Shown piece after piece: positions 8,869 to 33,093 of a stretch of DNA of 34,249 nucleotides (position 1 is the first letter of the stretch; each line of letters begins with the position of its first letter). Where the stretch lies: NCBI GenBank assembly GCA_903877335.1, contig CAIRDJ010000296.1:1-34249 (forward strand). Reading direction: 5' to 3'. This stretch comes from an uncultured Chloroflexota bacterium (GTDB taxonomy: Bacteria > Chloroflexota > Anaerolineae > Aggregatilineales > Phototrophicaceae). The notes below the pieces were generated by a model, which saw only the letters and a list, made by a program, of their open reading frames with translations, was not told where the DNA came from and did no database searches. A program made the position numbers and the translations under genes.

Positions 8869-9654
8869 ATGCGTGCGATTTTTACCGTCTATAAACGTGA
8901 GCTGGCAATCTACTTCCGCTCTCCCATTGCGTATGCCATCGCCTTTGCGCTCATGCTGTTCATGGGCTTACAGTTCTCCTACGCGCTGATCTTCGCCACA
9001 CAGGCGAACATCCAAGCCCAACAATTTGGGGGAGGACAGCAGTACACCCTCATGACCATTTTGGGGAGCGTCCAGTTGCTCACCTTCTTGATGTTCTTGG
9101 TGGGTCCGTTGCTCACCATGCGCCTGATTGCGGAAGAGAACCGCGAGGGCACGCTTGAAGTATTGATGACCTTGCCGATGAATGAGTATGAGTTCATCGT
9201 TGGCAAATTCCTTGCCTCTTGGACATATTACACCTTCATCTTGGTGCTCACACTCGTCCACGCTTGGTTAGGCTCGGCAGTGGGCAATCTCGATTATGGG
9301 CTATTGATCGGGCAATATGTCGGCGCGTGGTTGTATGGCGCGGCAGTTTTGGCAATCTGCTTGATCTGGAGCGCGGTGACAGAGGATCAATTGGTGGCAG
9401 CGTTCTTAGGGGCGTTGTCGGTCTTGATTCTATATGTATCCAACTGGGCGTATGAGTACGTCATCAACCTTCCTATCTCTGGCGCAGAATTGCTGGGCGA
9501 GTTCGTGCGTCAATTGGGCGTGGGGGTACACTACACCGAAACCATGTCACTAGGGATTATCCGTCTTGAAGACATTGCCTACTTCGTTTTCATGACCATT
9601 GCCGCGTTGTTCATCACCACGCGCATTGTAGAAACTCGCCGTTGGAGAAGCTAA
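8869..9654 (+). CDS. ABC-2 family permease, GldF-like
   Basis: The 261-residue protein has six predicted hydrophobic segments. Its N terminus (FTVYKRELAIYFRSPIAYA) is typical of ABC-2 permeases of the GldF/NosY class. The segment LLTMRLIAEENREGTLEVLMTLPMNEYEFIVGKF (broken here across positions 82-115) is the cytoplasmic coupling helix region conserved in this family: Arg-Leu-Ile-Ala-Glu-Glu followed by Gly-Thr-Leu-Glu. It begins two bases after the stop of the ATPase gene, so the two are translated together and probably form one transporter. The cargo is unknown. Confidence 0.9.
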   Translation: MRAIFTVYKRELAIYFRSPIAYAIAFALMLFMGLQFSYALIFATQANIQAQQFGGGQQYTLMTILGSVQLLTFLMFLVGPLLTMRLIAEENREGTLEVLMTLPMNEYEFIVGKFLASWTYYTFILVLTLVHAWLGSAVGNLDYGLLIGQYVGAWLYGAAVLAICLIWSAVTEDQLVAAFLGALSVLILYVSNWAYEYVINLPISGAELLGEFVRQLGVGVHYTETMSLGIIRLEDIAYFVFMTIAALFITTRIVETRRWRS

Positions 9655-9656
9655 AC

Positions 9657-11303
9657 ATGACACAAAATCAATCCTCTACACAACAACCCATCATCCCCCC
9701 TTTCATCCTCGTTGGATTAGCGGTGGTGGGGTTGCTGGTTGCCTTCGCCAGCTTATTGGTGTCTGGCGCATTGGGCATTGTTGGTTGGGCAGCTTTGGGT
9801 GTGGGCGCGTTGGCACTGGTCGCGCTGGCGGTGCTTGCTCCCCAAACCGTCTTGAGCGCGTTCAGCGGGCGCAACTTCCGCTTTGGGGGAACGAGCGTCT
9901 TGGTGACAGTGGTCTTGCTGGGCGCGTTGATCGCCGCCTATGTCATCATCGCCAATTTTGAAGTGGTCTGGGATGTCACCGGTAACGATGAGTTCAAACT
10001 CAATACACAGGCACAAGAAGCCATCACTGCACTGGGTGCTGACCCCAACATCCAAGCCATTGAGTTGATCGCTTTCTATGATTCGTCCCTACGGAGCGAG
10101 CAAGAACGCCGTGAACTCTTGTTCCAAGATTACGTCAACTACAGCAACAACAAAGTTAGCTATCGCTTAGAAGACCCCAACCGTAACCCCACCCTCGCGC
10201 AGTTCTATACCGCTGTGAACGGGGATATTGTGGTGCAGTTGGCAGGCAATGAAGACCCTGCTGGCGTGGAAAAGGTTCAAACCGCCTTTGGGTTCGACCA
10301 GAACCAAATCACCAACGCCATCCTGAGCATTGCCTCCAGTGGAGATTTCCGCGCTTACTTCTTGAATATCGACAGCGATGTCTCAAGCGAGGACACCGAA
10401 GGTTTGGGCGCGTCTGAAATATCAGGCATCCTGTCCGACCGTTTACGTTGGACGGTGAACGAAGTTTCTTCGATTGATTTGCTGTCCACCGGTAGCGAGT
10501 TTGAGCTTTTGGACGAAACAGCTGACGGAGAAGTCTTGGTGGTGATCGGTGGCAACCGTGAACTACGCGAGGAAGAGGTAGAACTCATCACCAATTACGT
10601 GAGTGAGGGCGGGCACTTGGTATTGATGGCGGCCCCTGATATTGACGGCTTGGCGTTGGCTTCTACAGGGACGCTCAATGATTGGCTCAAGCAAAACGTC
10701 GGGTTAAGTTTCTCTACAGATGTGGTCATTGATCCGTCACAAAACTTCCAAAGCCCCTACTTGCCCGCCATCACCGACCTTGATACCGCCCAATACATCA
10801 CTTCTAACATGGCGGCAAACAATGGCGCACTGGTGTTGCAACTCCCACGCCAAATCGTGGTAGAAACTACCTTGCCAGAAGACGTGACCGTCACGCCGAT
10901 TGCTCGCACTAGCGAAGGGTCTTACCTCAAGTCGGTAGAGAGCCTGCTTGCCGAAGACATCGAACCAACCGAGGACACGGTTAAGGGTCCCTTTGTGGTC
11001 ATGGCAGTAGCAGAAAACAGCAACAGCGGTGCGCGCGTGGTGCTTGTCGGAAGTCAAGACCTTGCCAGCAACCAATTCGGGTCAATCAACTTGGATGTCT
11101 CGCTTAGCACAATAGTTTGGGCAACCAACTATCAAGCGTTCTTTGAGTCGCTTCCGCGCGTGGCATCGGATGAGTTCAACCAAGATATTCCGATTGTGGC
11201 AACCAATGATGTCATCAATCAAATCAACTTTGTGAACCTATTCGCCCTGCCCTTCGGTATTCTTTTCATCGGTGGTTTCGTCTGGTGGAATCGTCGTAAG
11301 TAA
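9657..11303 (+). CDS. GldG-like ABC auxiliary membrane protein
   Basis: This 548-residue protein begins with two to three hydrophobic segments in the first 105 residues. A long extracytoplasmic domain follows, of the GldG / ABC_transp_aux type, and one C-terminal membrane helix (FALPFGILFIGGFVWWNRRK). The extracytoplasmic part includes a Rossmann-like stretch (EVLVVIGGNRELREEEVELI, then VSEGGHLVLMAAP) that is standard for this family. I used the ATG at 9657 because GGAG lies nine bases upstream; the TTG at 9642 overlaps the permease and has no ribosome site. It likely forms the outer part of the ABC complex. What it handles is unknown. Confidence 0.88.
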   Translation: MTQNQSSTQQPIIPPFILVGLAVVGLLVAFASLLVSGALGIVGWAALGVGALALVALAVLAPQTVLSAFSGRNFRFGGTSVLVTVVLLGALIAAYVIIANFEVVWDVTGNDEFKLNTQAQEAITALGADPNIQAIELIAFYDSSLRSEQERRELLFQDYVNYSNNKVSYRLEDPNRNPTLAQFYTAVNGDIVVQLAGNEDPAGVEKVQTAFGFDQNQITNAILSIASSGDFRAYFLNIDSDVSSEDTEGLGASEISGILSDRLRWTVNEVSSIDLLSTGSEFELLDETADGEVLVVIGGNRELREEEVELITNYVSEGGHLVLMAAPDIDGLALASTGTLNDWLKQNVGLSFSTDVVIDPSQNFQSPYLPAITDLDTAQYITSNMAANNGALVLQLPRQIVVETTLPEDVTVTPIARTSEGSYLKSVESLLAEDIEPTEDTVKGPFVVMAVAENSNSGARVVLVGSQDLASNQFGSINLDVSLSTIVWATNYQAFFESLPRVASDEFNQDIPIVATNDVINQINFVNLFALPFGILFIGGFVWWNRRK

Positions 11304-16005: not shown

Positions 16006-17358
16006 ATGAGTTTTGATCCTTTAGACGAAACCAACCCATCTCGCCCATTTCAAGAACCGCCCATCCATGCCGATGATACCAACCCCTCCGTTGTTGTGCG
16101 TCATGCACGCTTGGCGCAAGAAGAGCCACATCCGCATGCAGAGGACACCAACCCCGCTCCCCTTGAAGACACTGCACCCTCGTTGGTGATGCGCCGCGTC
16201 AACACGCGGTCAACTTGGAGGCAGGCAGTTGGGGTGTTGAGTTTGCTGGGGGCAAGCCTGTTCACGTTGGCGACGGTGTGGTTGATGTGGGCGGATGCGT
16301 CCCAAGTCCCACCCCCCCCCACGCTGGCGGCGACGAGCGAGGTGAACCTGTTGCCTAGCCCAACCACGCTTGATCCAACGGTTGATGCCTCCCCCGTGAA
16401 TGACGCGGACTTACCCACACTCGCGCCTGATTTCCTAGCGAGTATTTTGGCGCAACCGCTTGTCACCCCCACTGGTGACCCCTTAGAAATCACCGCTAAC
16501 CGTTTTGATCCGTTCACCATCATTCCCGATCGTCCGCGCAACGAGGTCATTCAATACACGGTGAAAAGTGGAGACACCATCGAAGGCATTGCCACACAAT
16601 TTAACCTGAAGCCGGAATCCATCGTTTGGGCGAATGGCGCAGGGATTGTTGAAAGCCTACCGATTGGAATCACTTTGTACATCCCCCCGATTGATGGGGT
16701 GTTGTATGAGCATGTGGGCAGCAAAACCTTACAAGAAATCGCCAGCGAGTATGACCTGCCAGATGCTTACGCCATCATCAACTCGGAGTATAACACCCCC
16801 TTGCGGGGCTACTTTCCAAATGATGTCCCCCCTAGCGGGGCATTGTTGATGTTGGCAGGGGCACAGGCTTATGAGGTTAGCTTCTATGATCCGGTGATCG
16901 TGACGGAAGGGGGAGATGCAGGGGCAACGGGAACGTATGTCACCTTTGCGCCCGGCGAAGCAGGCAGTTGTGCGCGTGTGCAAAATCCAGGCGGGGGGGC
17001 GTTCTGGACGCCTCCGCTTAACAGCTACACTTGGATTCGTGGTTTCTCCGGTTATCACACCGGCGTAGACCTTGCGGCATCGGTGGGCACCCCCATTTCT
17101 GCGTCTAATAGTGGTCGTGTCATTTTCTCGGGTTGGAACAGTTGGGGCTATGGATACATGGTAGCATTGGCACATGGTCCCTTCACCTCAATTTATGGGC
17201 ACATGAGTGTGGTTTATGTCGCTTGTGGGCAAGACGTGGGGGCGGGTGCCATCATCGGTGCAGTCGGAAATAGTGGCAATTCTTCCGGTCCACACCTGCA
17301 CTTTGAAATCCGTTACAACAATCAACCGCAAGACCCAACCATCAGCTTAGCATTTTAG
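16006..17358 (+). CDS. Membrane-anchored LysM / M23 metallopeptidase
   Basis: The 450-residue protein has a cytoplasmic tail of about 72 residues, one membrane helix at about 74-95, and a long external part. A LysM domain sits at about 182-227 (YTVKSGDTIEGIATQFNL), and a second LysM-like repeat follows up to about 285. The C-terminal M23 domain has His351 and Asp355 in HTGVD, YGHMS near 395, and HLH at 430-432, so all zinc ligands and the catalytic His are present. It should cut peptide cross-links in cell-wall peptidoglycan or activate other lytic enzymes. The tail carries four acidic-Thr motifs at Thr9, Thr25, Thr48 and Thr56. Nine C in a row (16312-16320) encode prolines 103-105 after the helix. 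It leads an envelope-related gene group. Confidence 0.9.
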   Translation: MSFDPLDETNPSRPFQEPPIHADDTNPSVVVRHARLAQEEPHPHAEDTNPAPLEDTAPSLVMRRVNTRSTWRQAVGVLSLLGASLFTLATVWLMWADASQVPPPPTLAATSEVNLLPSPTTLDPTVDASPVNDADLPTLAPDFLASILAQPLVTPTGDPLEITANRFDPFTIIPDRPRNEVIQYTVKSGDTIEGIATQFNLKPESIVWANGAGIVESLPIGITLYIPPIDGVLYEHVGSKTLQEIASEYDLPDAYAIINSEYNTPLRGYFPNDVPPSGALLMLAGAQAYEVSFYDPVIVTEGGDAGATGTYVTFAPGEAGSCARVQNPGGGAFWTPPLNSYTWIRGFSGYHTGVDLAASVGTPISASNSGRVIFSGWNSWGYGYMVALAHGPFTSIYGHMSVVYVACGQDVGAGAIIGAVGNSGNSSGPHLHFEIRYNNQPQDPTISLAF

Positions 17359-17368
17359 AGAAACTGCG

Positions 17369-18487
17369 ATGAAACGCCTTGCCCTGCTACTTAGCTTTTT
17401 GACAATCCTCTTGATGATCGAACGGATTCAGGCACAACCACCTGTGATCGTCACAAGCCACCGACCCACCCCGCTCTATAGTGGACCCGGCATCACTTAC
17501 GTGGATCATGACCGCCTTAATCCGGGCATAGAGGTGCAGTTGGTAGAGCGTAATTTGGTGGGGAATTGGGTTTACCTTCAACGACTGACCCCAGATCAAC
17601 AAATTGCCCAAAGTGGTTGGGCACAAAGCGGATACCTAAACCTCCCCCCAGAGCTACACTTTAGCGAGATACCCGTTACCACCCTTCCAGATGCCGACCT
17701 CGCCCGCGCCCAAAGCCAAACGGAACAGGCACTCTATGACGTACCGCTCATCTCGCTCCCCCTTGAAACAGTTGCCGAAATCTTCGAGCGCGGGCAAGCG
17801 CGAGGTTATGACCCCCATACCCTCACCAAGGTGGGGGACAGCGTGAGCGCAGACCCAAGCTATTTAGAGATCATGGGGAATCCTGAACCGACCTTAGGGG
17901 CATACGATCATCTTCTGCCAACGCTGGACTACTTTGTTGATTCTGCAACACGCCCCAGCGTGGCAGCAAAGATTGGGCTTTCCAGCTATGTGGTGTTTGA
18001 TCCCTTTTGGGCGGACAAAACCATGTGCGAAGCGAATGAGTCCCCGTTGCAGTGTGAGTATCGGTTGAAACAACCCAGCTTTGCGTTCATCATGTTTGGG
18101 GCAAATGATGTCTTGAGCATGACTTATGAGGAGTATGGGGAACAATTGGAGCAGATCGTTCAAGAGACGCTCGCGCACGACATTGTGCCCATCCTTTCCA
18201 CCTTCAGCACCCACCCTGAACACCCAGCTCACGAGCAGGCACTCGCCTTCAATCTCAAGGTGTTAGAAGTTGCCCATCACCATGACCTACCTCTCATCAA
18301 TCTATGGAGCGCAACTCGTGCCTTGCCCGATTATGGACTAGACCATGACCACATTCACATGAAACAAAGTGGCTTCAACTATCTCAAATATGACAGCGGA
18401 CATGAAACTTGGTACGGTACTAGCCTGCGCAATTTGTTAGCATTGACCATGTTAGATCAACTTCGCCATCAATTAGACCTACCATGA
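17369..18487 (+). CDS. Secreted SH3-like plus SGNH/GDSL hydrolase
   Basis: A signal peptide covers residues 1-22 (ending IQA). Residues about 25-90 look like a bacterial SH3 domain (PLYSGPGITYVD, VYLQRL, SGWAQSGYL). The catalytic part shows the SGNH blocks. These are GDS at 156-158 with nucleophile Ser158, GAND at 244-247 giving the oxyanion Gly/Asn, and DHIH at 327-330 with the Asp/His pair. Such enzymes hydrolyse acyl esters; secreted ones often deacetylate polysaccharides or peptidoglycan. Fusion to an SH3 module and a start 11 bases after the M23 peptidase gene suggest a cell-wall target, which is inference. The gap to the next gene is short. Confidence 0.82.
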   Translation: MKRLALLLSFLTILLMIERIQAQPPVIVTSHRPTPLYSGPGITYVDHDRLNPGIEVQLVERNLVGNWVYLQRLTPDQQIAQSGWAQSGYLNLPPELHFSEIPVTTLPDADLARAQSQTEQALYDVPLISLPLETVAEIFERGQARGYDPHTLTKVGDSVSADPSYLEIMGNPEPTLGAYDHLLPTLDYFVDSATRPSVAAKIGLSSYVVFDPFWADKTMCEANESPLQCEYRLKQPSFAFIMFGANDVLSMTYEEYGEQLEQIVQETLAHDIVPILSTFSTHPEHPAHEQALAFNLKVLEVAHHHDLPLINLWSATRALPDYGLDHDHIHMKQSGFNYLKYDSGHETWYGTSLRNLLALTMLDQLRHQLDLP

Positions 18488-18500
18488 ACAGGAGTCGTTT

Positions 18501-18872
18501 ATGAAATCTTGGATGTTTGCCCTCGCACCATTGCTGATGGTTGGGTTAGTGGGTTGTGGAACCCCCCCACCCGCACAAGTACAAACTGTCGAAGCGTATT
18601 TACAGGCAAAAGTAGAGTCTGACCTTCCCACTTTGCAATCCCTGATCTGTGCCGAATTAGCACAGAGGGCGGTTGCAGAAAGCCGCACGTTCGCCACCGT
18701 GAGCAACGTTACCATCCAGAACATGTCTTGTCGCGTGGATGAGGATGACACCCATGTCACGTGTAGCGGGGAAATCATCGCACAATATGGCAACCAAACC
18801 ACCCCCTTCCCACTCACACGCTACCGTGTGGTACAAGAAGAGGGCGTATGGAAGTGGTGTGGGGAATCTTAA
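18501..18872 (+). CDS. Small lipoprotein of unknown function
   Basis: The 123-residue protein has a lipoprotein signal peptide: hydrophobic residues 5-18 and the lipobox LVGC with Cys19, followed by a Pro-rich spacer. The mature domain (VEAYLQAKVESDLPTLQSLI..., ending in YRVVQEEGVWKWC) is shaped like small NTF2/DUF4878-type lipoproteins. It has an initial helix about gene products of this size and then beta strands, with four further Cys residues that could pair. AGGAG precedes the ATG. It follows the SGNH hydrolase by 13 bases and is probably in the same operon. I do not recognise a specific family. Confidence 0.75.
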   Translation: MKSWMFALAPLLMVGLVGCGTPPPAQVQTVEAYLQAKVESDLPTLQSLICAELAQRAVAESRTFATVSNVTIQNMSCRVDEDDTHVTCSGEIIAQYGNQTTPFPLTRYRVVQEEGVWKWCGES

Positions 18873-19057: not shown

Positions 19058-21535
19058 TTATGGTTCACAGTTCAACTTGCCCTCAAAACTTGCCCCGTTC
19101 AAAAACCCGCTCACGTCCGCCTCACGGGTACACCCTAGTGACTCATCGCCTGCGGTCGCGCTGAATTGCAAATTCTCGAAGCTATTGCGAACATTCAACC
19201 AACGACCGTCTTCCACCTGTTTGTAGCGCGAGGAATAAACCACCTCTCCTAGCCGAATCAACTTCACCATCATCGTGCCATCCGCCTCTGCTGTGAGTTC
19301 AATATCGCGTATCTGCTCCGGCGCGGTGAAGATGCGCACGGGAATGCGCCCACTCACAGGAAGGGTTGAATTGGGTGCGGGAACAGGGGTTGCCACAACC
19401 TCAGTCGCGTTCACTTCGGCAACAGGAGCAACTTCCTGCACGGCAACAGGAGCAACCTCCTGCACGGCGACCGGTTCAATCGTCACCGTTTCTACCGCGC
19501 CTGCTGTTGTTACCAATGGAGCAAAGACCAATTCTGCAGTTGAAGGTAGAATAGAATCGAACGAGGCATCATAAATCGTGCGCCAAGTTCCATCGCCAAT
19601 GATCTCCCCCAACGTGACATCCACCTCGTCACGGAAGTCGGTTTGCCCAGGTGGGATCACCATGGAGTACGTCTCGCTGGTGAGAAATTCGCCAATTATT
19701 TGGTAATCCGTAGCGTTAGGTGCAGTGGCTCGCAAGGCTTCTAAGGTTGCCCAGTTGTCGCTCACGGCTTCAACTTGACCATCTTGTAAAGCCGCAAAGA
19801 CCTCAATGAGTGTCGCCTGAATGGGCATCACATTAACGCCTAAGCCAGCACCCTGTAGGGTTTCTTCCGCCAGCGTGCCCGTTTGGACGGCAACCGCCCG
19901 CCCAGCAAGTTGGTCGTTGCTGGTCAAGCCACTGTCTGCCCGCACCATAAACCGTTGCCCATCCACAAAGTAGAATGTATTCGTCCATTCACCCCAACCC
20001 GCGTTATCTAGCGTGAAGACGGTATTGCGAATGAGCAGGTCAACTGTGCCGGTTGTGAGTGCCTCTGCTTGTTGACGACTAGAAACCTTCACCCATTCAA
20101 TCGGCATGCTTTCCCCAAACAAGCGTTTTACCAACTCTTTGGCAATCTCGATCTCAAAGCCCTGATAGGTGGCATCGTCGATCCGCATGGAAAAAACCGG
20201 GAAGCTACCGTTCACACCAATGCGAATGCTACCACGCGCTTGGATCGATTGAGCGAAAGCCGAAGAAGCTCGACTGGCAGTGCTGGGAACCGCAACCAAC
20301 TCTACTACTGGGGCAACCATTACGCTTTCAACCGTTGCTTGAGGAGTCGCTTCAGGATTGACCACCAAACCTGCCAACATGCCCGGATCAATCCCTTCAG
20401 GGGTGGCAAGCACGACCTCGCTATTGGTGGCGGGCAACTCAACTGTTGGTGCTGCCGTTGGGGGCGTATTCACAACCACCCCGAAATCGTTGGTACCCGG
20501 CGCAATGACCACGCCTTCTGGCAAGGGAGCGGTCGCTAATGGCAGCACGCGCACCTTCTCATTTGAGTACGCACGGGATTGAGTGGGTACACCTGCTGCC
20601 AAGCCATCTAAGCCCATTGGAACGCTGGTGAATTGTCCGCCAGAAACAGAAACCCTTGCACCACCTGATTCAACCGAAAGCACGCCTTGTAGCGCGTAAA
20701 CGTCTAAGCTGTTATTAGGAAGGGCTTGCACCCACGCAGTAACGGTGCGATCAATGACCAAACGCACCCCGTTTAGCTCCAACAGGGTGGAATTGGGTGC
20801 TTGGAGGAGCAAGCCACTGTCGGGGGCGTTGGCACACGGGCGATCCTCTTTGCTGGCAAGCGTCAACTTCATGCGAGTGAGCGTTTGGGTTTCAGTCGCT
20901 TCAAACGAAAGCGGAGACAAACTGGCAACCAGCGCGGTCTCCTTCACCACAAAGGCGGGCACCCACCCGCTCCCCAATTGAGAAACCATCTTGATCCACT
21001 GCATGCCAGACACTTCCACCCGCCCCAGACCGATTAAGGTGTCCCCAGAGATCATGGAGGCGACCACTTGACTGGACATGGAAGGGGTGAGGTGAATGTT
21101 ACCGAGCGTCCCCACAGTGAAAGGTAGCTCCACCACGGGCGCGGTGAGGTTTTCGAGCAGGGCATTTCCATACAGTTGTAAGGTGGTGCGGTCGTTGGTA
21201 TTGGTAGGAATGGTGAGCAAACTCACACCATAATGGCGCGTCACCTGGTCATAACCGCTCGCCAAGATGGACTGTAACTCCACCGCAGAGCCAACTTGAC
21301 CGGGTTGGGTGAGGCTCAAGCTAGAGGCGCGGCGGGCAGTGGTTAAAACATTGGCATTGCCATAGCACACTTGATTGAGCCGTATCAGTTGGCAATTGGT
21401 CTGGGCAGTTTGCCAAGCACTCTGAACGATGGCTTCACAAGTTGCATCTGACTGTGCGCGAGCTGGGGTGGTTATCGTTGCCCCCACCCACAGGAATAAA
21501 CAGATGGTTAAAAGGTGCTGAAGGTGTTTTGGCAT
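19058..21535 (-). CDS. Secreted multidomain solute-binding fusion protein (SH3-like, FecR-like, SBP family 3)
   Basis: The 825-residue protein starts at ATG 21535 with AGGA upstream; a TTG eight codons earlier is less likely. It has a signal peptide (1-27) and a Cys-rich domain with Cys33, Cys48 and Cys57 in NQVCYGN. An SH3-like region follows at about 138-205 and a FecR-like beta region at about 225-330 (LDVYALQGVLSVESGG). A Pro/Val linker leads to a family-3 periplasmic binding domain at about 432-662 (RIGVNGSFPVFS, GFEIEIAKEL, VDLLIRNTVFT). A Val/Pro repeat linker and a roughly 105-residue C-terminal domain with two Cys end the protein. Family-3 domains bind amino acids or similar small ligands. 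No permease genes are adjacent, so a sensing or scavenging role is possible. Confidence 0.82.
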   Translation of the reverse strand: MPKHLQHLLTICLFLWVGATITTPARAQSDATCEAIVQSAWQTAQTNCQLIRLNQVCYGNANVLTTARRASSLSLTQPGQVGSAVELQSILASGYDQVTRHYGVSLLTIPTNTNDRTTLQLYGNALLENLTAPVVELPFTVGTLGNIHLTPSMSSQVVASMISGDTLIGLGRVEVSGMQWIKMVSQLGSGWVPAFVVKETALVASLSPLSFEATETQTLTRMKLTLASKEDRPCANAPDSGLLLQAPNSTLLELNGVRLVIDRTVTAWVQALPNNSLDVYALQGVLSVESGGARVSVSGGQFTSVPMGLDGLAAGVPTQSRAYSNEKVRVLPLATAPLPEGVVIAPGTNDFGVVVNTPPTAAPTVELPATNSEVVLATPEGIDPGMLAGLVVNPEATPQATVESVMVAPVVELVAVPSTASRASSAFAQSIQARGSIRIGVNGSFPVFSMRIDDATYQGFEIEIAKELVKRLFGESMPIEWVKVSSRQQAEALTTGTVDLLIRNTVFTLDNAGWGEWTNTFYFVDGQRFMVRADSGLTSNDQLAGRAVAVQTGTLAEETLQGAGLGVNVMPIQATLIEVFAALQDGQVEAVSDNWATLEALRATAPNATDYQIIGEFLTSETYSMVIPPGQTDFRDEVDVTLGEIIGDGTWRTIYDASFDSILPSTAELVFAPLVTTAGAVETVTIEPVAVQEVAPVAVQEVAPVAEVNATEVVATPVPAPNSTLPVSGRIPVRIFTAPEQIRDIELTAEADGTMMVKLIRLGEVVYSSRYKQVEDGRWLNVRNSFENLQFSATAGDESLGCTREADVSGFLNGASFEGKLNCEP
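19418..19465. repeat. Two-copy 24-bp tandem repeat in the solute-binding fusion gene
   Basis: The units at 19418-19441 and 19442-19465 differ by a single base and encode VAPVAVQE-type octapeptides in the linker before the C-terminal domain. A partial third copy (GGCGACC) follows. Copy number could vary between strains and change linker length in frame. Confidence 0.8.
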
Positions 21536-21615: not shown

Positions 21616-22542
21616 TTAGCGGACTAAACCCAAACGCCGTAGATCATTCAGAATAATTCGCTCAAAGCTGACATCAGTGCGCGCCAAAACATAGTGGATT
21701 CCCTGTTGGCGAAATTGGCGCGAAAGCTCGGTTTGCCATTGTCGCACGCGACGCAGATACAATTGGCGCATATCTTGGTCAAGGGAAACATCTTGTGGCA
21801 CAAAGTTCTCGGCATCCACCAAGCGCAAATCCCCCAGCAAAGACGGATCGAGTTCATTCGGGGCAAGCACCTGCACCACCGCTACTTCATAGCCTCTACC
21901 AATTAATGCCTGCAACCCCTCACGGTAGGCATCACGATGGAACAAATCGCTCAAGATGAAAAGTAAGCCCGGCAACCGTTCATGCTTGGCGTAGTCGCTC
22001 AAGAACTGGTTGAAGTCGAGGGTGGTGTGTGGCTTCAGGCGTTGCAAGAACTGATAGAGCGGGACTTGGAAATTGCGCCCGCGCGCCGGACCAAAACGCT
22101 CCACTTGGTCGGCATGGGCAGCGGTCAAGCGCAAGCGGTCATTGGTTGACATCGCAATAGTGGCAATCCCTGCTGCCAAGCGTTTGGCATAGGTGAACTT
22201 GTGATGGTCGGTTGGCTCGGCATGAAGGGGAAAGTTCATGCTTTCGGATTGATCAATCAGAATGTGAACGGCTAAATCCTGCTCATCTTCATATTGTTTG
22301 ATGTAGGGCTTTTCAGTGCGAGCATATAAGTTCCAGTCCAAGTGGCGCAGATCATCCCCTTGTACGTAATTACGATAGCCAACAAACTCAATGCTACTAC
22401 CTCGTTTTGCGCTGCGACGGTCGCCCTTGATCGCGCCAACTCGCACACGTTGGGCTACAAGCATGAGTTGCTCCAGTTTGCGCCGTGTACGGTCATCAAA
22501 TAGACGTTGGGAAGACACGGTCAGTTTGTTTCCCAAACACAT
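21616..22542 (-). CDS. DUF58 domain-containing protein
   Basis: The 308-residue protein carries the DUF58 core: RTRRKLEQLMLVAQRV, then SSIEFVGYRNYVQGDDLRHLDW and YARTEKPYIKQYEDEQD. A von Willebrand A-like half follows, with DQSESMNF in place of the MIDAS DxSxS motif. DUF58 proteins usually partner a MoxR-type AAA+ ATPase, but none is encoded here. Start choice is uncertain. The ATG at 22542 has no ribosome site, while a GTG at 22518 lies two bases after the stop of a small upstream ORF (22521-22655) that does have a strong one. The conserved core begins after both. The role is probably assembly or maturation of an envelope or metal-dependent complex. Confidence 0.85.
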   Translation of the reverse strand: MCLGNKLTVSSQRLFDDRTRRKLEQLMLVAQRVRVGAIKGDRRSAKRGSSIEFVGYRNYVQGDDLRHLDWNLYARTEKPYIKQYEDEQDLAVHILIDQSESMNFPLHAEPTDHHKFTYAKRLAAGIATIAMSTNDRLRLTAAHADQVERFGPARGRNFQVPLYQFLQRLKPHTTLDFNQFLSDYAKHERLPGLLFILSDLFHRDAYREGLQALIGRGYEVAVVQVLAPNELDPSLLGDLRLVDAENFVPQDVSLDQDMRQLYLRRVRQWQTELSRQFRQQGIHYVLARTDVSFERIILNDLRRLGLVR

Positions 22543-29859: not shown

Positions 29860-30789
29860 TTACTTGTTTGACCCCAACGTCAACCCTTGAATGAAATAGC
29901 GTTGCAAGAAGATGAAAACCAAGACAGTCGGTAACGTCCCCAAGATTGCCCCAGCGGTGATGACGGGCCAATCTGTGACGTATTGCCCTTGCAAGGTTGC
30001 CAAACCAGCGGTCACCGGACGCAAGGCATCTTTGCTGATAAGGATGATCGCCCACAGATAATCGTTGAACACCCATGTAAATTCCAACGTGCCCACCGCT
30101 GCCAAGCCCGGCAAACTCAGGGGCAACATAATCTGCCAGAAGCTACGAAACGCGCTGCTTCCGTCCACCTGTGCCGCATCAAAGATTTCAGACGGAATGC
30201 CCTTCATGAAGTTGCGCAACACGAAGGTACAAAAGCCCATTTGAAAGGTGGTGTGAATCAAAATGAGTGCCCAATAGGTGTTATACAACCCCAGATCGCT
30301 GGTCAGGCGAAACACAGGGAGAAGCAAGATTTGAAACGGGAGCATCGTCCCCGACACAAACAAGAAGTATATCGGCATATTCAGGGCAAACTTATAACGC
30401 GCCAAAGCGTAAGCAGTGAGCGAGGACAGAAACAACATGAGGAATAGCGAGGGAAGCGTGATGATGAAGCTGTTCAGCAGATAGCGACTCACGCGGGCAT
30501 TCGTCCATGCTTGGGTGTAGTTTTGCGAAAGCGTTTGCATCCATTGCGAAGCATCCATCGGCACACCAAACTCTTGCGCGCGTATCTCCGCGCGCTGTTG
30601 GATTTCTTGCCCAACCATGCCGAAATTCCAAAAGCCATTTTTGTTGATGTCGCGTTGTGTCCGTACCGACGTGAACAGAGCGGCGATGATGGGCAGTAAC
30701 CAAATGAAGGTGAGGGTAATCAAGAACAGGTGCTTAAATAAAGTGCCCACTGTGAAAGGACGAGCTGGTTTGCGGGTGAGCGTGGTCAT
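29860..30789 (-). CDS. Carbohydrate ABC transporter permease, MalG-like
   Basis: The 309-residue membrane protein has six hydrophobic segments. Its cytoplasmic EAA loop reads EIFDAAQVDGSSAFRSFWQIMLPLSLP, with the Gly that docks the ATPase, and MalG-like ends (FIFLQRYFIQGLTLGSNK). A segment of about 75 residues between the first and second membrane helix is larger than in minimal permeases but is common in MalG relatives. GGAGG precedes the ATG, and it begins 12 bases after the first permease gene. It should form the channel with that protein. No ATPase gene follows; an MsmX-type shared ATPase may serve it. Confidence 0.92.
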   Translation of the reverse strand: MTTLTRKPARPFTVGTLFKHLFLITLTFIWLLPIIAALFTSVRTQRDINKNGFWNFGMVGQEIQQRAEIRAQEFGVPMDASQWMQTLSQNYTQAWTNARVSRYLLNSFIITLPSLFLMLFLSSLTAYALARYKFALNMPIYFLFVSGTMLPFQILLLPVFRLTSDLGLYNTYWALILIHTTFQMGFCTFVLRNFMKGIPSEIFDAAQVDGSSAFRSFWQIMLPLSLPGLAAVGTLEFTWVFNDYLWAIILISKDALRPVTAGLATLQGQYVTDWPVITAGAILGTLPTVLVFIFLQRYFIQGLTLGSNK

Positions 30790-30801
30790 GTAATGCCTCC
30801 G

Positions 30802-31701
30802 TTACGCTTCAATTTCATCTTGAAGCACACGCCACAAGAAGAACAAAATGAACACAAAACTAATGAGGAACAACATGACCGCGATAGATGCCCCGTACCC
30901 CATCTTGTAGTTATTGAACGCTTCGATGTACATGAAGTTTGCCAACACTTGGGTATTGTTGCCCCCGCGCGTCATCACGCTGACCAGATCAAAAGCACGC
31001 AATGAATCAATCACCGAGATGACCACAATGATGCTGGTGACGGGCGCAAGCAAGGGCAAGATCACACGGAAGAACAAATTCAAACGGTCTGCGCCATCCA
31101 CTTGGGCGGCATCCACCAAGCTGGGGTCAACGTTCTTCAAGCCTGCTAGGTACAACACCATCACATAGCCAACTTGTCGCCAAACAGCGGCGGCGATCAC
31201 CGCCCAGATGGCGGTTTGACGGCTAGAAAGAATGCTGATCTTGGCATCGGGATTACCAAACCAAGTTGCCACCAACTGAAGCAAGCCCTCTTGTGGGTTA
31301 TACACCCCAAACGACCACACCAACCCAATGACCGGCAACGAAAGCACCAAAGGCGCAAAGAAGCTCACCTTGTAGAAACGCCCGCCCACCATCTCCGCGT
31401 TGAAGATCATCGCCAAGAATAAGCCCGCCACGCTTGGGACGGTGATGAAAACCAGCAACCAGCGCAAATTGTTTTGAAGCGAGAGATGAAAGTCACGGTC
31501 AGAAAATAACCGATCATAGTTTGCGAAGCCAATGAAGCGCGGGTTGCGAGTAACGCCGTCCCAATTGGTTAGGCTAAGATAAAAGGTGGAAAAAGTGGGA
31601 TAAACAATCCATGTGAAATAGAGCGCGAGCGGAATCAACATGAACAGGTACGGTGTCCAATTGATAGGCTGACGTTTAGAACCTGTTTTCAAAGAAGCCA
31701 T
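30802..31701 (-). CDS. Carbohydrate ABC transporter permease, MalF-like
   Basis: The 299-residue protein has six hydrophobic segments (first at about 17-35, PYLFMLIPLALYFTWIV) and the EAA loop SLVDAAQVDGADRLNLFFRVILPLLAP. The opening (YLSLTNWDG) is typical of MalF/UgpA-type sugar permeases. It lies 111 bp after the binding-protein gene, across a strong hairpin, and directly before the second permease. The two permeases and the binding protein make a CUT1-type importer for an oligosaccharide or glycerol-phosphate-like solute; the ligand cannot be fixed from sequence. Confidence 0.92.
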   Translation of the reverse strand: MASLKTGSKRQPINWTPYLFMLIPLALYFTWIVYPTFSTFYLSLTNWDGVTRNPRFIGFANYDRLFSDRDFHLSLQNNLRWLLVFITVPSVAGLFLAMIFNAEMVGGRFYKVSFFAPLVLSLPVIGLVWSFGVYNPQEGLLQLVATWFGNPDAKISILSSRQTAIWAVIAAAVWRQVGYVMVLYLAGLKNVDPSLVDAAQVDGADRLNLFFRVILPLLAPVTSIIVVISVIDSLRAFDLVSVMTRGGNNTQVLANFMYIEAFNNYKMGYGASIAVMLFLISFVFILFFLWRVLQDEIEA

Positions 31702-31742
31702 AACTTGTCTCTCTTTTTATCATCAACAAGGACAGATAACAA

Positions 31743-31772
31743 ACACAGCCAACCGTGACGGGTTGGCTGTGT
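31743..31772 (-). terminator. Strong hairpin between binding-protein and permease genes
   Basis: ACACAGCCAACC and GGTTGGCTGTGT form a perfect 12-bp stem with a six-base loop, 40 bp past the binding-protein stop. On the minus strand it is followed by a weak T-rich stretch. Partial termination or mRNA protection here would give more binding protein than permease, as in other sugar ABC operons. Confidence 0.65.
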
Positions 31773-31812
31773 CCATAGCAATTACAAGATTGCAGGGTAA
31801 AGGGAAATTCCC

Positions 31813-33093
31813 TTATTGCTCGGCAGCTTGTTCTTCAGCAATCCGTACACGGTCTTCTTCAAGGCGTGCGAGGATGTCTTCAACAGCAGCGGGGTTATCC
31901 CAGAATTCCATGAAGCCGTCCATACCTGCATCCGCCATTTCGGGGGTGGTGTCGCGGTCATAGAATTGTGCAATGAAATCTGCACTTTGGATCATGCCGA
32001 TACCCTTTTGAGTCAATTCATCAAGGTTAGACAAATCAACATCGGTGCGGGTTGGGAGGCGGTTCAACTCGTCAAGGAACAATTGTTGAACTTCAGCAGA
32101 ACCCAAGAAGGTCATGAAGGCTTGTGCGCCAGCGGGGTTGGCCCCGTTAGCGGACATGAACCAACCGTCAGTGGGAGCATCTTCACCGATGGCAACATCA
32201 GGGTTGATGATCGGGAATTGGAAGAAGTCTAGGTCTTCCAACATTTCAGGAGCGGTGCTACGAACTTGGTCGCGGATGAAGTCGCCCATGAGGTACATAG
32301 CAGCTTCCCCATTTGCCATAGGAGTAACGGCTTCGTGCCAGTCCAAAGCGGAAGCATCTTCGTTGAAGCAGTTATGTTCAAACAACTTGTTCCAGTTTGC
32401 CATGGTATCCATCACGCGGGGGTCGGTGTAGGATTCTTTCAAGAGCATCAGGTCGATGTGGAATTCAGGACCGTTGGTGCGCATGTTGATATAGTCGAAC
32501 CAAGCTGCAGCGGTCCAACGATAGCGCGTGCCGACCGTGATGGGGGTGATGCCAATCGCATTGAGCGCATCGCAAGCTGCCAAGAGTTCGTCGAAAGTAG
32601 CGGGGGTGCTTTCGATACCAGCTGCTTCGAAGATGGAGGGGCGGTAGTACATCGCCCACCAGTAGTAGTTTGAAGGCAAGAAGTAGGCATTGCCATCATC
32701 CAAGTAATCGGTTGCCAATGCTTGGAAGCCGGGCGCGAACATGTCGCCAAAGCCGGGTTGACTCCATGCCTCAGTGAAGTTGCCAATCAACTCACGGGAG
32801 ATGAAGAAGTTAGCACGGTTGCCTGCAAACCAGGTCAACACGTCAGGAGAAGGTTCAGCAGCGAGGTAAGCGCGGATCGCTTGCTTGAAGTCTTCATGTG
32901 CAACGGTGGAGTGTTCTACCTGCATGTCGGGGTTCATCTCATTCCACATTGCAACTACCCGTTCATCCATCTCACGCGGAAGGGGGTCGCTTGCATTGGA
33001 GCTGTAGGTGATGACATCTTGTGCAGAAACAGAGGCGACGGCTACTGCCAACATTGCCAGTAGTACAATAAGAACCATGAAATGCTTTTGCAT
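31813..33093 (-). CDS. Extracellular sugar-binding protein of ABC importer
   Basis: The 426-residue protein has a signal peptide (about 1-24, ending SVSAQ) without lipobox. It belongs to the family-1 solute-binding class: VVAMWNEMNPDMQVE near the start, DFKQAIRAYLAAEPSPDVLTWF, then EAAMYLMGDFIRDQ and ANPAGAQAFMTFLGS. These proteins capture mono- or oligosaccharides and hand them to MalF/MalG-type permeases, which are encoded just downstream. AAGGAG lies eight bases before the ATG. The divergent galT suggests galactose-containing sugars, which is inference from context only. Confidence 0.92.
   Translation of the reverse strand: MQKHFMVLIVLLAMLAVAVASVSAQDVITYSSNASDPLPREMDERVVAMWNEMNPDMQVEHSTVAHEDFKQAIRAYLAAEPSPDVLTWFAGNRANFFISRELIGNFTEAWSQPGFGDMFAPGFQALATDYLDDGNAYFLPSNYYWWAMYYRPSIFEAAGIESTPATFDELLAACDALNAIGITPITVGTRYRWTAAAWFDYINMRTNGPEFHIDLMLLKESYTDPRVMDTMANWNKLFEHNCFNEDASALDWHEAVTPMANGEAAMYLMGDFIRDQVRSTAPEMLEDLDFFQFPIINPDVAIGEDAPTDGWFMSANGANPAGAQAFMTFLGSAEVQQLFLDELNRLPTRTDVDLSNLDELTQKGIGMIQSADFIAQFYDRDTTPEMADAGMDGFMEFWDNPAAVEDILARLEEDRVRIAEEQAAEQ

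Follow-up and report, generated by a model that had tools for sequence, protein, structure and literature searches.

A predicted exported Chloroflexota protein joining an SH3b-in-FecR module to a family-3 solute-binding domain that lacks the amino-acid clamp residues

Why should a family-3 solute-binding domain lie inside a long, probably exported protein that is built neither like a component of an ABC importer nor like a sensor kinase? The question is raised by the gene at 19058..21535 on the minus strand of a 34,249-nucleotide stretch of DNA (the window) from an uncultured Chloroflexota bacterium. The gene encodes 825 amino acids plus a stop codon and begins with an ATG, with AGGAAG located 6 bases before it. 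An alternative TTG start eight codons earlier gives 833 residues, and subtracting 8 from the 833-numbering gives the 825-numbering. The initial annotation had described an 825-residue multidomain protein with an export signal (by eye) and SH3-like, FecR-like and family-3 domains, and the open reading frame, the Pfam matches and a structural model all agree with it. The absence of a kinase domain from the protein (Pfam) likewise fits its view of the overall build. The domain order is signal peptide, cysteine-containing head, SH3-like domain, FecR-like domain, linker, SBP_3 domain, linker and cysteine-containing C-terminal domain. By eye, residues 1-28 (21452..21535; this and all other parts of the gene are on the minus strand) form a Sec-type signal peptide ending in TPARAQ, without a lipobox cysteine. 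Of the cysteines, seven in all, the signal peptide has one, the N-terminal part four (33, 48, 57 and 234) and the C-terminal end two (802 and 823). Promoter and terminator scans did not rise above shuffled controls.

The N-terminal ~320 residues make up a single Chloroflexota module in which a FecR-like beta domain with four cysteines is interrupted by an SH3b domain, a unit that no Pfam model matches as a whole. Its first half, the cysteine head (residues 29-129, 21149..21451, with Cys 33, 48 and 57), was placed from the cysteine columns and the model; the inserted SH3b domain (residues 133-207, 20915..21139) from fold comparison, from SH3_3 matches in relatives and from relatives without SH3; and the second half of the FecR-like domain (residues 217-334, 20534..20887, with Cys 234) from fold comparison and the cysteine column. 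The module was modeled by AlphaFold2 with 74 sequences (pLDDT 89, pTM 0.81) and the model was compared with known chains by VIA-align. SH3b chains aligned at model residues 106-180, with 6biq_B at Z 11.1 (67 residues, 1.6 A) and 8b2f_A, a muramidase wall-binding domain, at Z 10.8 (70 residues, 1.9 A). The FecR-type anti-sigma parts 6ovk_R (Z 10.7, 133 residues, 3.5 A) and 4m0h_B (Z 10.3, 135 residues, 3.9 A) aligned over model residues 58-308, a range that begins before the SH3b and ends after it. Model residues 1-57 appear in none of the VIA-align rows listed, which has no bearing on their fold. These comparisons support the SH3 and FecR folds named in the initial annotation, although Foldseek itself returned nothing at E <= 0.001 for the module model against the PDB. 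At the sequence level, Pfam SH3_3 (PF08239) does not match the 825-residue protein itself, but it matches 34 of the 39 rows of module alignment A1. The protein has no Pfam FecR match, and the case for a FecR-like part is a purely structural one that comes from the predicted fold.

In six relatives, the match to the module profile is split into two adjoining pieces, from which the SH3b positions alone are missing (e.g., 5-121 then 205-318). The four cysteines are retained in every one of them, and the spacing of the first three is unchanged. On the predicted fold, and with these SH3-less relatives as independent support beside it, the SH3b is an insertion inside the FecR-like domain. The earlier view of a fusion of separate Cys-rich, SH3 and FecR pieces therefore holds for the folds but not for the joining, as we find one conserved module. 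The FecR-like beta domain is probably stabilised by disulfides, and one bond is predicted to link the head to the second FecR half over the inserted SH3b. It shares its fold with the periplasmic domain of FecR/PupR anti-sigma proteins (6ovk, 4m0h; Z about 10), but differs from them in the inserted SH3b, the four cysteines and the lack of a cytoplasmic anti-sigma domain. Pfam finds no FecR-type cytoplasmic anti-sigma domain in the protein, and its N terminus is by eye a signal peptide and not a FecR-like transmembrane helix. Five of the six SH3-less relatives (L229, L230, L231, L232 and L233) belong to one other family of the class and carry the module behind a segment that is hydrophobic by eye, and the module would be extracytoplasmic there too, since it follows that segment. 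A Thr/Pro linker comes after the module in all five, a similar-looking C-terminal domain is present in L230-L233, and the N termini of the three that were scanned (L229, L231 and L233) resemble TPR weakly, with scores below the cut-off. This SH3-less layout resembles a FecR-style membrane protein.

Membership of the 825-residue protein in the module family is clear. It scores 170 bits with a profile of 73 relatives built without it, the best of 200 shuffles reaching 3.9, and it shows the three cysteines spaced 15 and 9 apart, the fourth cysteine in the FecR-like part and the whole-module profile match that characterize the family. The four cysteines are present in 74/74 rows of alignment A4 (for which 73 of 90 eligible rows were used) and in 67, 69, 69 and 68 rows, respectively, of an earlier 69-row alignment that included the 825-residue protein. 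A scan of named genomes found the module at 208 loci. The 80 loci kept have titles reading Chloroflexi, Anaerolineae, Anaerolineales, Anaerolineaceae, Phototrophicales or Aggregatilineales, except for two contigs of one MAG labelled Bacteroidetes. The named-genome scan run with the single 833-residue protein as query gave 18 pattern matches and zero relatives, and a search of viral contigs with module alignment A2 gave 16 pattern matches and zero relatives. This defines a common, probably surface-located module in a phylum with few cultured members, with a domain-inside-domain layout that is testable.

What follows the module differs from gene to gene. Two further module genes of the same genome (C328 and C394) carry other tails, and 136 distinct module-like ORFs yielded 125 tails once 11 had been set aside because the tail was short or the ORF was a copy of the query itself. 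Pfam matched SH3_3 in 10 of the 125 tails, LysM in 2, PKD in 2 and the VHL beta domain in 2, and other domains, among them PPC and an alpha/beta hydrolase, in single cases. Repeats, either acidic or of Asn/Gly or Thr/Pro type, make up many of the tails. The module profile was covered to 75% or less in 7 of the 136 ORFs. Five of these are among the 125 tails and hold one of the two LysM cases, two of the ten SH3_3 cases and a beta-lactamase match, leaving SH3_3 in 8 and LysM in 1 of the 120 fuller modules. Because the tails vary in this way, the module can be regarded as a carrier with changing cargo. An SBP domain was absent among the 25 listed of the 28 Pfam tail families, and a direct search with the SBP domain of the 825-residue protein found none in the other module ORFs collected. 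The VHL beta domain (PF01847) tails belong to Chloroflexota module proteins at L122:6391-6774 and L147:1284-1718 (E 3.6e-12 and 3.7e-8), and the alpha/beta hydrolase is joined to the module at L024:2473-3156.

In the 825-residue protein, the module is followed by a low-complexity Pro/Thr/Val/Glu linker (residues 350-422, 20270..20488, by eye) and then by the family-3 solute-binding domain (residues 423-664, 19544..20269), which was recognized by Pfam (stretch 437-659), NCBIfam and PDB chains. PF00497 (SBP_bac_3) matches with E 5.9e-19 and 68.6 bits against a cut-off of 26.4, and PDB chain 5eyf_A with E 3.3e-22; the NCBIfam matches are to amino-acid transporter binding proteins, all below cut-off. 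The match runs the full length of the domain, and the reading frame is unbroken. A tree of 56 domains places this one on a long branch (1.57) beside the AapJ-like clade (support 86/85), with the tree program warning that long branches may be misplaced. With the SBP_bac_3 amino-acid binding proteins (AapJ-like 4z9n, AncQR, GlnH), it shares the sequence family, at ~30% identity to relatives, and one conserved pocket Phe, and with the AapJ-like proteins also an RNT motif. Unlike those transport proteins, it is part of an 825-residue putative envelope protein, has no transporter genes of the family-3 type among the neighbors scanned and lacks the Thr/Arg clamp.

This clamp consists of an Arg (R83 in AncQR, R75 in GlnBP) and a Thr or Ser (T78 in AncQR, T70 in GlnBP) that hold the alpha-amino and alpha-carboxyl groups of the ligand, according to PMC5431781. 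At this place (20003..20020), the phmmer alignment to 4zv1 puts Val506 at the AncQR Thr78 position and Asn511 at the Arg83 position (V514 and N519 in the 833-numbering). Among 51 related SBP domains, the loop Arg is found in 48, Ser/Thr at the first place in 41 and both in 41; the 825-residue protein has neither. Clamp loss is not unique to it, since 3 of the 51 domains, all in composite proteins (L217, L220 and L033), are without the loop Arg and 10 are without the Ser/Thr. The phmmer alignment also shows that Phe453, the equivalent of AncQR Phe20, is kept. Two other positions are odd (833-numbering), Leu563 where 41/51 domains have Thr and Thr630 where 46/51 have Pro, and the alpha-amino-binding Asp is kept in the phmmer alignment but is Asn in the MAFFT alignment. 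A model of the SBP and C-terminal domains from the single sequence reached a mean pLDDT of 38.7, too low for use, and the pocket is read here from the sequence. The loss of the residues that grip amino acids suggests that the domain probably has a role other than feeding a transporter. The proposal of a surface ligand sensor or scavenger is narrowed accordingly: an ordinary amino-acid type becomes less likely because the amino-acid-holding residues are gone, while another ligand, or a domain that no longer binds, would fit these substitutions.

Another low-complexity linker, in which VAVQEVAP is repeated (residues 665-717, 19385..19543, by eye), connects the SBP domain to a C-terminal domain of 108 residues (718-825, 19061..19384). 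The claim of a Cys-containing domain at this end is correct (Cys 802 and 823), and no relative of it was found. Searches of 60 relatives and of the genome itself gave, beyond the domain itself, weak matches only (best E 0.0046). The weak matches L074-L081 were re-scored, four were inspected, and they were judged to be chance. The domain was unrelated by hhalign to the 12 largest tail clusters, was found in its own genome only among 301 genomes of the phylum (a sample of a larger group), and had no match in the PDB (best E 0.37).

We then asked how singular the joining of these parts is. Among the matches listed for the 60 relatives, the gene itself is the only one to span both the N-terminal and the SBP part; all others are confined to one of the two. 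No second fusion with both parts was present among the matches listed for 154 genomes of the order (E <= 1e-30, 6 candidates per genome) or for 396 genomes of the class, a sample of a larger group (E <= 1e-32, 2 candidates per genome), thresholds at which a fusion with weakly matching parts could be missed. In a search from the SBP side over the 154 order genomes (all candidates scored, E 1e-12), only the frame of this gene exceeded 612 aa among the best rows. The other frames above 500 aa in those rows (G047, G029, G092, G150 and G151) are five tandem- or single-SBP proteins of 500-612 aa without the module. Literature searches listed no description of the full architecture. Within the limits of the genomes searched, this is the only gene seen joining the module to a solute-binding domain, and the claim of a new full architecture is to that extent upheld.

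The idea that an SBP_3 domain in a composite protein is in itself singular had to be abandoned. Composite SBP_3 proteins occur in other families of the class (L215-L221) and in the same order (L033, L035, L236, L237 and L238), and carry two to four SBP domains in tandem: four with an FGE-sulfatase domain in L217, two with LysM in L216, two with a Thr/Pro linker and an SH3b of the module family's flavour (36.9 bits) in L218, and two behind AAA_35 and TPR in L219. Because composites of other layouts recur in the class, the theme is not unique to this gene; family-3 binding domains have been reused in composite proteins several times within the class. These proteins share with the 825-residue protein the family-3 domains in a long chain, as well as SH3b in L218 and LysM in L216, but differ in the tandem arrangement and in the loop Arg, which persists in most of the domains compared. 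The Cys-FecR module was sought in L033-L036 and L236-L238 and was not found. SBP domains in larger, non-transporter-like proteins are thus a recurring theme of the class, reached here by another route. The tandem composites could be multi-site receptors.

The gene neighborhood was explored by scanning 20 window genes with Pfam and one more with NCBIfam only. No sensor kinase and no family-3 (polar amino-acid type) permease or ATPase gene was found among them. The claim that no permease or kinase lies nearby holds for these types but not for permeases in general, as two ABC permeases and an SBP_bac_1 gene are located ~8 kb away (29860-33093); these form a set of the sugar type, which thus includes a binding protein of its own. 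Directly upstream, ~80 bp from the ATG and on the same strand, is a DUF58 gene (21616..22542, minus strand), a possible operon partner; no DUF58 relative was found among the ORFs of the module-relative loci collected. A further neighbor encodes TsaE. On the plus strand are a LysM-M23 peptidase (16006-17358, Pfam) and a GDSL lipase (17369-18487, Pfam), the N terminus of which is weakly SH3-like (12.7 bits). Together with a small protein that by eye begins like a lipoprotein, they stand in a row at 16006-18872, and this envelope-type group faces the 825-residue gene across a convergent gap. The window also encodes an ABC_transp_aux / DUF4350 protein (PF09822, PF14258) at 9642-11303.

SH3b domains often bind cell-wall peptidoglycan. 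The regulatory domain of MltF is SBP-like, and SBP (PBPb) domains act as sensor modules in BvgS-type sensors. In MltF, muropeptides control the regulatory domain of a wall protein (PMC10746161), which makes it the closest worked-out parallel, and CdgH uses a PBPb domain as a sensor module (PMC5431781). The 825-residue protein differs from MltF in lacking a transglycosylase domain, and from CdgH and the BvgS-type sensors in lacking a kinase or cyclase output (Pfam). A PDB match to 6hqh, named lytic transglycosylase F (E 9.1e-4), was not counted as likeness to MltF; we take it to be misnamed because it is tied in length and score with the deoxyfructosyl-amino-acid binding protein 5l9o, and the name is probably a carried-over misannotation.

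The open reading frame, the module family, the insertion, the SBP family, the loss of the clamp residues and the failure to find a second fusion were established directly. From these, we tentatively favor, at a little short of an even chance, a Sec-exported, wall-facing tethered receptor or interaction protein that is not an importer part and is built on a carrier module with swappable cargo. In this model, the protein would be exported by Sec to face the wall, the SH3b-in-FecR module would hold it at the envelope, possibly by wall binding, and the low-complexity linkers would present the SBP domain and the orphan two-cysteine domain. The SBP domain would be cargo used outside transport, closing either on a protein or on some small ligand that is not a free alpha-amino acid; by analogy with MltF, wall-derived peptides are our best guess at such a ligand. 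Closure could then be read by the C-terminal domain or by a partner. We counted for a receptor the module family with its conserved cysteines, the SH3b and FecR folds, the SH3-less relatives, the SBP_3 domain and its long branch, the clamp loss, the varied tails, the other composites, the lack of amino-acid-type permease or ATPase genes among the window genes scanned and the envelope-type neighbors on the plus strand, and against it the single known sequence, the ambiguity of the Asp, the clamp loss elsewhere and the Foldseek null for the module. A bolder version, in which a Chloroflexota-wide envelope receptor system uses a disulfide-locked SH3-in-FecR carrier with interchangeable cargo, and the rebuilt pocket here recognises a non-amino-acid ligand (e.g., a fragment of the wall), the signal being passed on mechanically by the orphan C-terminal domain and needing neither a transporter nor a kinase, seems improbable to us as a whole. 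Profile-based annotation would likely name the protein a transporter binding protein, which its pocket and surroundings do not support.

The same substitutions could mean that the SBP domain has lost ligand binding altogether, its two-lobe fold being kept as a spacer or a protein-interaction surface. Val and Asn at the clamp places, Leu563, Thr630 and the long branch would all fit such a dead domain, but the frame is open and intact, the match extends along the whole domain and Phe453 is kept. Moreover, the family-3 protein NocT has lost its amine-binding residues, while keeping the Arg, and binds opines instead (PMC4192606). We consider a binding-dead domain unlikely, though a serious contender. 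One could also think of an assembly or binning chimaera joining two unrelated genes, as the MAG has 500 contigs and a contamination of 5.81% and no second copy of the fusion was found among the matches listed. This would surprise us greatly: one open frame runs through both junctions, each of which lies within an in-frame linker, and GC is even along the gene (0.53-0.57 in every segment vs 0.527 for the whole window).

The FecR-like part might instead relay the binding of a ligand across the membrane, to a sigma factor or another partner. The match to the anti-sigma periplasmic parts of PupR and BDI_1681 points in this direction, as does the FecR-like transmembrane arrangement of the five proteins in which an SH3-less module follows a segment hydrophobic by eye, but the signal peptide looks cleavable, a cytoplasmic part is missing and the window genes scanned include none for a sigma factor, making a FecR-kind surface signalling receptor very unlikely. 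Only somewhat less doubtful, and still quite improbable, is a scavenger, in which an ordinary binding protein of AapJ/GlnH type has become anchored and hands its ligand to a distant ABC importer. The nearest neighbors of the SBP domain in the tree are AapJ-like binding proteins, and the genome has three other SBP_3 matches, including an AapJ-like one whose adjacent ORFs resemble ABC permeases by eye. However, the clamp residues are lost, scanning of the window genes turned up no transporter genes of family-3 type, and the SBP domain is flanked on both sides, by a wall-type module and by the C-terminal domain. The permease ORFs that adjoin the AapJ-like SBP_3 gene of this genome (L002) look sugar-type by eye, an unusual pairing.
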